Virus record (IMG/VR): IMGVR_UViG_3300009059_000063 | Coordinates: 1 to 23,453 of that record | Strand: one strand, 5' to 3' | DNA length: 23,453 bases | Source of the DNA: a virus | Part shown: one piece after another, positions 19,036 to 19,974 of the stretch | Layout of the letters: each line of letters opens with the position of its first letter | How positions within the stretch are numbered: position 1 is the stretch's first letter | Made by a program: the position numbers and the translations under genes | Notes under the pieces: model-generated | What the model was told of the DNA's origin: nothing | Database searches by the model: none | Seen by the model: only the letters and a program-made list of their open reading frames with translations

Positions 19036-19164
19036 TTAATCCATCCATTTACCGTGCGTTCTTAGATGCCAGAATCTATGCTTTAACACCTCAATAGTTA
19101 GAGCAAAAAATGTGTCAGCTTCATACGTACCTGCTTTACAGGTTAGTTTAAACTTTGGTTTCAT
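19036..19164 (-). CDS. Small hypothetical protein (42 residues)
   Basis: The chosen start is the ATG at 19164, giving MKPKFKLTCKAGTYEADTF and ending HLRTHGKWMD. A longer frame reaching 19227 exists, but its extra residues (GSTPSPTAK...) are the translation of the tRNA-like T-arm, so the short start is preferred. The A-rich leader TAAAATAAAAACT supports it. No function is recognised. It lies 21 nt from the next small gene. Confidence 0.5.
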   Translation of the reverse strand: MKPKFKLTCKAGTYEADTFFALTIEVLKHRFWHLRTHGKWMD

Positions 19165-19178
19165 AGTTTTTATTTTAG

Positions 19179-19348
19179 CTGTAGGAGAAGGAGTTGAACC
19201 TTCAAACAGTGATTCAAAAAGTAGCACAATGCTTGCAAGCTGGTGGTCAACCCCATACTACTTTTCTATTTCATGATCTGTGCCCACGAGACGAGTGGGT
19301 GTGTTTACCGGGGTCATAACTGAGACAACCCAATTTCACCATCCTACA
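19179..19348 (-). tRNA. tRNA-like gene, enlarged or interrupted (Leu-like D-arm)
   Basis: On the minus strand a perfect 7-bp acceptor stem (TGTAGGA at 19342-19348, TCCTACA at 19180-19186) is followed 3'-side, without gap, by a perfect T-arm GAAGG-TTCAACT-CCTTC (19187-19203). On the 5' side come TG (positions 8-9) and a D-arm GTG-AAATTGG...TAAA-CAC, like bacterial tRNA-Leu. The D-loop holds a roughly 22-nt extra hairpin (GGGTTGT/ATGACCC). A 5-bp/7-nt arm CCCAC-TCGTCTC-GTGGG takes the anticodon place, but lacks U33. Then 79 nt separate it from the T-arm, containing an 8-bp stem AAAAGTAG/CTACTTTT. The total of 170 nt is twice a normal tRNA. It may be an interrupted tRNA, a fusion of decayed tRNAs or a tRNA-like RNA. 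Its 5' end overlaps the nuclease-like gene by 13 nt. Confidence 0.45.
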
Positions 19349-19974
19349 ATAACATCTTTTACAATCCATTTATCTCCTGCATACATTAGTAAGTCATCAT
19401 ATGTTTTAAATTGCTTACCTAAATGTACACCAAAAAATCCAGTTTTAGTTCCTCTTCTTTTTAACTCATCATCATAGATTAAACTATCACAAGTGAAGTC
19501 TGGATGATTTAATAAGCTAGGAGGAAACAGTCCTAATACATGATAGTTTAATTCAGAACTTTCACTCTGAGTAATTAGTATTTCGGGATAGGGGCTATTC
19601 TTAAATATAATAAAAGGATTAGATGGTCTATTAGTCTTTACACCATATTTAAGTCCTATTGGTTCTAGATCAGGAACATTCTTAGAATAAGAAAACATAG
19701 GGTCTAAGTCTGAGAACTTCATTCCTAAAAAGTTTTCTAAAGCAGCTTCTCCTAGATATCCTCTAGTAGATCTAGACTTAATCTGATTAGAATCTGCTGT
19801 GTAATGAAGACCTACATCATCTAATTTATTATCAGACCATTTTACACCAAAGTTTTTTATAAGACTACACTGCTCTTGAGATATAGTTATTTCTAAACTA
19901 TTCTCTAGAGCTTTCTGCATATTCTTCTTATACTCTTTCTCTGGGTTTATATATCGTACACTGCTACTGATCAT
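19336..19974 (-). CDS. Nuclease-like protein (PD-(D/E)XK-type, imperfect motif)
   Basis: In this 212-residue protein, GYLGEAALENFLG (E76, E80) followed by PDLEPIGLKYGVKT (D102, K113) resembles the helix-Glu then Asp...xxK layout of restriction-type nucleases. The usual acidic residue two before the Lys is Gly111, so the active site may be shifted or lost. C-terminal residues (FFGVHLGKQFKTYDDLLMYAGDKW) look like a small mixed domain. Context: it follows another nuclease two genes upstream and precedes packaging, so DNA processing is plausible. It overlaps the upstream gene by 11 nt, and its TGA stop lies within the tRNA-like acceptor region. Confidence 0.45.
   Translation of the reverse strand: MISSSVRYINPEKEYKKNMQKALENSLEITISQEQCSLIKNFGVKWSDNKLDDVGLHYTADSNQIKSRSTRGYLGEAALENFLGMKFSDLDPMFSYSKNVPDLEPIGLKYGVKTNRPSNPFIIFKNSPYPEILITQSESSELNYHVLGLFPPSLLNHPDFTCDSLIYDDELKRRGTKTGFFGVHLGKQFKTYDDLLMYAGDKWIVKDVIVGW

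Follow-up and report, generated by a model that had tools for sequence, protein, structure and literature searches.

A conserved, tRNA-shaped RNA family of Bacteroidota and their phages that is unlikely to decode and may be a substrate of AspRS and GatCAB

A 170-nt RNA encoded by a phage fragment was found to belong to a family of tRNA-shaped RNAs shared between phages and bacterial chromosomes. That this family is real, strongly conserved, and non-decoding is close to certain from comparison of its sequences. The family is common to Bacteroidota and their phages and appears to be undescribed, since neither Rfam 15 nor the open-access literature searched contained it, subscription papers and preprints lying mostly beyond the reach of that search. 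On balance, we favor the reading in which the RNA is charged with aspartate by AspRS and the aspartate is then amidated to asparagine by GatCAB; of the readings considered, it joins the largest number of the independent facts set out below. That asparagine synthesis is the purpose of the RNA is less sure.

The window, i.e., the whole stretch of 23,453 nucleotides that was analyzed, is a 23.4-kb phage fragment encoding terminase, portal, and major head protein, and its terminase is ∼25% identical to terminases of crAss-like, Flavobacterium, and Cellulophaga phages. The RNA lies on the minus strand in the gap between a 212-aa ORF on its 5′ side, which matched no PHROG and no Pfam entry, and a small downstream ORF (19036–19164), the start of which is probably the ATG at 19164 (42 aa) and not a GTG within the RNA. 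The exact 170-nt sequence recurs unchanged in contigs from other metagenomes. The features of the locus are as follows, RNA position i corresponding to window position 19349 − i:

19336–19974, minus strand: upstream ORF, 212 aa, running 13 nt into the 5′ end of the RNA
19179–19348, minus strand: whole tRNA-like RNA, 170 nt (R1 covariance model; identical 170 nt in independent contigs)
19342–19348, minus strand: acceptor stem 5′ strand, TGTAGGA, containing U1 and G2 (7/7 pairs)
19337–19339, minus strand: D-stem 5′ strand, GTG (helix 3, 96.2% paired)
19310–19333, minus strand: D-loop hairpin insert, 24 nt, upstream of G18G19 (nearly phage-only)
19308–19309, minus strand: G18 G19, elbow contact to the T-loop (invariant in alignment A1)
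19301–19303, minus strand: D-stem 3′ strand, CAC (alignment pairing)
19283–19299, minus strand: anticodon-like arm, CCCAC-TCGTCTC-GTGGG (stem covaries; helix 4, 99.7% paired)
19288–19294, minus strand: anticodon-like loop, positions 32–38 = U C G U C U C
19204–19282, minus strand: 79-nt domain in the place of the variable arm, with helices V1, V2, and V3 (helices 5, 6, and 7)
19243–19253, minus strand: motif GGGTTGACCAC, represented as a bulged hairpin (invariant in aligned members)
19231–19240, minus strand: self-complementary apical sequence GCTTGCAAGC (palindrome test)
19187–19203, minus strand: T-arm, GAAGG-TTCAACT-CCTTC, abutting the acceptor stem (helix 8, 99.4% paired; GTTCRA T-loop)
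19180–19186, minus strand: acceptor stem 3′ strand, TCCTACA
19179, minus strand: discriminator G73 (G in 221/222 distinct members)
19178, minus strand: encoded C74 (C in 236/237 copies)

As described in an earlier note on this DNA, the acceptor stem is perfect over 7 bp, the T-arm abuts it directly, a Leu-like D-arm (GTG..CAC) stands behind a 2-nt spacer (TG), the D-loop carries a hairpin insertion, 79 nt are counted between the anticodon-like arm and the T-stem in the place of the variable arm, and the anticodon-like arm lacks U33. The RNA has the cloverleaf features of an elongator tRNA, namely a 7-bp acceptor, G18G19, and a GTTCRA loop in the T-arm, and a variable region of three covarying helices that is larger than in ordinary tRNAs of either class I or class II. 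Single-sequence folding of the window RNA was mildly above chance (z −1.97; 11 of 200 shuffles equally good), and it is comparison with relatives, not this fold, that places the locus above chance. ARAGORN in default mode made no call at the window RNA, the Rfam tRNA model did not match it up to E 10, and four scans against Rfam 15 returned no family above gathering score at the RNA itself. An ARAGORN intron search, which had been suggested as a check, reported the locus as a tRNA-Lys with a 95-nt intron; since scores of other spurious tRNAs were called in the window alongside it, this call is no evidence.

Relatives were traced via neighboring proteins and then by a pattern scan of viral contigs and genomes (loop, motif GGGTTGACYAC, and T-loop), with candidates filtered by stem tests. 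These tests were passed by at least ∼96 distinct phage sequences from the viral-contig scan and at least ∼90 distinct chromosomal sequences from the genome scan, and across phages and the chromosomes of Bacteroidota the family numbers at least ∼220 distinct copies. Covariation was present in all eight helices. RNAalifold analysis of 71 divergent members yielded 34 pairs, 29 of which changed on both sides; in this alignment, 96.3% of cells were paired as compared to 74.6% in shuffles, and the covariation score was 0.648 as compared to 0.202 (500 shuffles), with slid structures reaching at most 0.170. A separate mutual information analysis recovered the acceptor stem and the stems of the D-arm, anticodon-like arm, and T-arm, together with three helices of the extra domain. 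Pairing in the acceptor stem and T-arm, loss of which in relatives had been named in advance as a sign of a chance or decayed locus, was 98.6–100%. The window scored 124.5 bits over the full covariance model R1 and members scored 77–152 bits, while class II tRNA-like matches in 10 whole genomes or records reached at most 54 bits.

At first sight, the locus resembles a tRNA that contains additional sequence, and this look is the sole point in favor of a decayed, interrupted, or fused tRNA; the earlier note had entertained both an interruption and a fusion of two tRNAs. This explanation is refuted by the alignment, in which the interior is a covarying domain (13 of the 14 pairs in helices 5, 6, and 7 changed on both sides with pairing kept) that is conserved across the phylum and also in tandem arrays, and we regard it as scarcely tenable. 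The sequence GGTTGACCAC, previously suggested to be a second D-arm 3′ half, is not a D-arm remnant and belongs instead to the motif GGGTTGACCAC, which is drawn as a small bulged hairpin of its own with a UUGA loop. The closing pair of this hairpin, consensus 73–85, covaries; the inner pairs as drawn are invariant, an invariance that arises partly from selection because the motif formed part of the search pattern. The motif is missing from most short forms (107–125 nt) of the RNA.

Among the matches listed, chromosomal members were nearly all from Bacteroidota, with Chitinophaga, Pedobacter, Spirosoma, Aquirufa, Niastella, Cyclobacteriaceae, Saprospiraceae, and Flammeovirga as listed hosts. The RNA is carried by at least 42 of 392 sampled Bacteroidota genomes (a lower bound, with eight candidates scored per genome), by 4 of 41 genomes in a smaller sample, and by 30 of 41 Chitinophagaceae genomes. 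Pattern matches outside Bacteroidota (Levilactobacillus, Okeania, Virgisporangium, and others) failed the acceptor or T-stem test, and no member was found at E 1e-13 in 100 Pseudomonadota and 81 Bacillota genomes, in searches run without an internal positive control. When named phages were searched by blastn with four family members, the matches were limited to short fragments, for the most part T-arms belonging to ordinary tRNAs, or there were none. Tandem arrays of two or three copies, short forms included, occur in some hosts, and length classes are sometimes mixed within an array on host chromosomes (L318 2477–2907, L319 2673–3124, and L331 2198–2531).

Near relatives have 109-, 130-, 160-, or 167-nt versions at the site of the window RNA, with differing interiors. 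At the same site beside the same gene (proteins 93–100% identical), L005 (4622–4751), L006 (4622–4730), L007 (1537–1645), and the window (19179–19348) have RNAs measuring 109, 130, or 170 nt whose interiors are unrelated, a pattern resembling a recombinational swap of the middle with retention of the ends. L019 (3600–3760) differs from L029 in having unrelated sequence in place of the 5′ portion of the RNA, with what follows being the same in both; L019 is possibly a chimeric contig.

The anticodon-like loop combines strictly kept and freely varying positions. Among 222 distinct members, U35, C36, and C38 were present in all and G34 in 219, while position 33 was T, C, A, or G and position 37 was T, C, or G and never A; the window has C33 and U37 in place of the U33 and purine 37 of an elongator. 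Since exact-pattern members were selected with GTCTC in the loop, a fair test comes from the 34 distinct copies that the model retrieved, in which positions 33, 34, and 37 vary and 35, 36, and 38 are kept except in one apparently mislocated loop. The conserved aspartate identity determinants are G73, G34, U35, C36, and C38, with a contribution of G2-C71 in bacteria (PMC9976931). All of these are retained in the family (G2-C71 in 220/222 and G73 in 221/222 distinct members); the G1-C72 pair of bacterial tRNA-Asp is not, being replaced by U1-A72 in 221/222. Three host copies have Glu-like CUC or UUC in place of GUC (L323 2572–2686, L324 2432–2546, and L332 2150–2259).

The variability of positions 33 and 37 makes ordinary codon reading by the RNA unlikely. 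A functional, if unusual, tRNA-Asp that has a very large variable arm and acts on the ribosome would be in keeping with the GUC anticodon of nearly all copies and with the location of phage copies in tRNA arrays. However, C33 in the window, A33 or G33 in other copies, and the consistent absence of A37 speak against this, as do the ordinary tRNA-Asp genes with CUGUCAC-type loops that several of these phage contigs contain, so that we consider a working tRNA-Asp very improbable. Together with the conservation of the extra domain's structure across the phylum, the free position 33 and the absence of A37 support a further possibility raised in the earlier note, i.e., a tRNA-like RNA unrelated to decoding.

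The end pair of the RNA points to GatCAB. U1-A72, present in 221 of 222 distinct members, is the pair recognized by bacterial GatCAB (PMC4206432); among canonical tRNAs of the fetched loci, which are mostly phage, it is the rule in tRNA-Gln, common in tRNA-Met, and rare in most others. C74 was found in 236/237 copies as compared to 376/386 of these canonical tRNAs, and base −1 was never G in RNA copies, a pattern that fits a putative tRNA-type 3′ maturation. In Bacteroidota, gatB was present in 40/40 RNA-positive and 30/40 RNA-negative genomes, and within Chitinophagaceae (41 genomes) in 30/30 carriers and 1/11 non-carriers of the RNA (Fisher p ∼1e-8, without phylogenetic correction), the single genome with gatB but without the RNA being G606. 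On the AsnRS tree, gatB was lost independently about three times and the RNA was lost each time, too few joint losses for a significant phylogenetic sign test; loss of gatB with retention of the RNA was not seen in the genomes tested. In Chitinophagaceae, asnS was found in 34/34 genomes tested and glnS in 40/41, so that neither Asn-tRNA nor Gln-tRNA requires GatCAB there. In three RNA-positive genomes (G001, G017, and G586), asnS and the RNA lie within ∼6–11 kb of each other on one contig.

Two further candidate associations did not hold. Loss of asparagine synthetase in RNA-positive genomes was not clean, with AsnB over cut-off in ∼23/30 Chitinophagaceae with the RNA and 10/11 without; asnB does not track the RNA, which leaves unproven any simple replacement of asparagine synthetase by the RNA. 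A residue in the AspRS anticodon domain that separated 10 genomes with the RNA from 10 without it did not do so in 18 additional genomes. An RKFG-type motif is common to the AspRS of carriers and most non-carriers at a site that differs between discriminating and non-discriminating AspRS, which weakly suggests that the AspRS of carriers is discriminating.

Host and phage copies differ in their surroundings and loops. An Lrp/AsnC-family regulator gene lies divergently upstream of the RNA at 77 of 94 testable host loci, with some host families lacking this neighbor, as compared to 0 of 83 phage loci with an AsnC-family gene beside the RNA. Beyond the AsnC-family gene, several host genomes have what we take to be suf genes. 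Phage copies lie within 1 kb of a tRNA gene in 57 of 97 cases, often at a spacing of 4–6 nt, and 38 of 39 distinct D-loop hairpin inserts came from phage contigs. In the segment after GGGTTGACCAC, a perfect palindrome of at least 6 nt was present in 86% of 64 distinct phage segments (21–35% in shuffles) and one of at least 8 nt in 64% (5–10% in shuffles), whereas host copies had palindromes at the background level (27%); 59% of D-loop inserts contained a palindrome of at least 6 nt, against a background of 19–32%. The phage loops differ in sequence yet remain self-complementary (GCGCGC, GCCGGC, GCTTGCAAGC, and GCTAGCTAGC, the window having GCTTGCAAGC), consistent with loop–loop pairing between two copies, and this suggests that phage copies may dimerize through these loops. 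Alternatively, the palindromes may exist for a DNA-level reason.

In the favored reading, RNase P and RNase Z would excise the RNA from its transcript, CCA would be completed on its 3′ end, AspRS would load aspartate, and GatCAB, recognizing U1-A72, would amidate the aspartate to asparagine on the RNA. With position 33 free and no standard purine at position 37, the product would be kept out of normal decoding, and its release would amount to tRNA-dependent asparagine synthesis; alternatively, the Asn-RNA might serve as a donor. In hosts, the adjacent AsnC-family regulator probably controls the RNA; in phages, the RNA would often be made from a tRNA array, and the self-complementary loops probably permit dimers. 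A fuller version, which we put forward tentatively and hold less probable than not, is that of a dedicated, phylum-wide, non-decoding biosynthetic tRNA with which a discriminating AspRS starts asparagine synthesis under AsnC-family control, with a phage-captured dimerizing form; such an RNA would combine the tRNA-Asp loop for AspRS with the tRNA-Asn end pair for GatCAB. Several observations weigh against charging and amidation. Bacterial tRNA-Asp also uses G1-C72, which the RNA lacks, the large variable domain might hinder AspRS, and the three Glu-like host copies lack GUC. The joint losses with gatB are only about three independent events, G606 has gatB but no RNA, and outside Chitinophagaceae many genomes have gatB without the RNA (30 of the 40 RNA-negative genomes), where GatCAB has other work. 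AsnB in most RNA-positive genomes (∼23/30) implies that the RNA is not the sole route to asparagine there. In addition, every genus that has AsnRS, GlnRS, and GatCAB is reported to carry U1-A72 in its tRNA-Asn (PMC4206432), so that tRNA-Asn could itself be the GatCAB substrate.

Two of the other possible explanations are unlikely but deserve weight. The RNA could be a non-decoding mimic that binds AspRS and/or GatCAB as a scaffold, sensor, or sponge, its level set by AsnC, and is not a metabolic substrate. The same identity elements and the loss with gatB are compatible with binding without turnover, and asparagine synthesis is not strictly needed in carriers, most of which have AsnB. However, G73 and C74 are as strict as in real tRNAs, a strictness that pure binding would not require; we give such a mimic a minor chance. 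A simple decoy, as offered by the earlier note, may be conceived, but leaves unexplained both the chromosomal copies beside AsnC and the joint loss with gatB. Marginally less probable still than the mimic is some other job, as an AsnC-controlled RNA or part of an RNP, the joint loss with GatCAB then being lineage-wide gene loss. That there are only about three independent joint losses and that some host families have no AsnC neighbor are in line with this, and GGGTTGACCAC resembles a protein-binding or tertiary site that charging alone does not explain. Against it, U1-A72 and the Asp set are both retained, though unrelated functions would not need them, and gatB loss with the RNA kept was never seen.

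The proposed route of Asp charging followed by amidation to Asn is reminiscent of tRNA-Asn in the indirect (AspRS and GatCAB) pathway, with which the RNA shares U1-A72 and G73; both occur with GatCAB, also in genomes having AsnRS and GlnRS (PMC4206432). In contrast to tRNA-Asn, the RNA has GUC and not GUU, such that a discriminating AspRS could charge it, and it has a class II shape with an extra domain of ∼40–110 nt and seems unable to decode. With tRNA-Asp it shares G34, U35, C36, C38, G73, and G2-C71, but it differs in having U1-A72 and not G1-C72, a free position 33, no A37, a Leu-like D-arm, and a huge variable domain. As in tmRNA, tRNA-like ends are joined through a non-tRNA interior; however, tmRNA has a tag ORF and pseudoknots and no anticodon arm, whereas the anticodon-like arm of the RNA is present and covaries, and ARAGORN in tmRNA mode found no tmRNA in the window. 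GOLLD and ROOL are large phage-linked RNAs. They form homo-oligomers, which have been solved (PMC12286853), and the self-complementary loops of the phage RNAs suggest a comparable self-association, which is inferred for the present RNA; GOLLD and ROOL are much larger and have no tRNA fold. A tRNA-shaped RNA with a job outside translation is also exemplified by tRNAOther of Bacillus cereus, a pseudo-tRNA with a Trp anticodon that some Bacilli carry and that is poorly lysylated (PMC3399842), although no extra domain or GatCAB link has been described for it.

Even without the proposed mechanism, this is a large conserved RNA family missed by default ARAGORN and by Rfam that is worth cataloguing, and for phage annotation it is a reason to retain “broken” tRNAs. 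If the mechanism is true, it would explain why many Bacteroidota retain GatCAB despite having AsnRS and GlnRS, a retention so far attributed to tRNA-Asn (PMC4206432), and the family would represent a tRNA-derived RNA dedicated to amino-acid synthesis and not to decoding.
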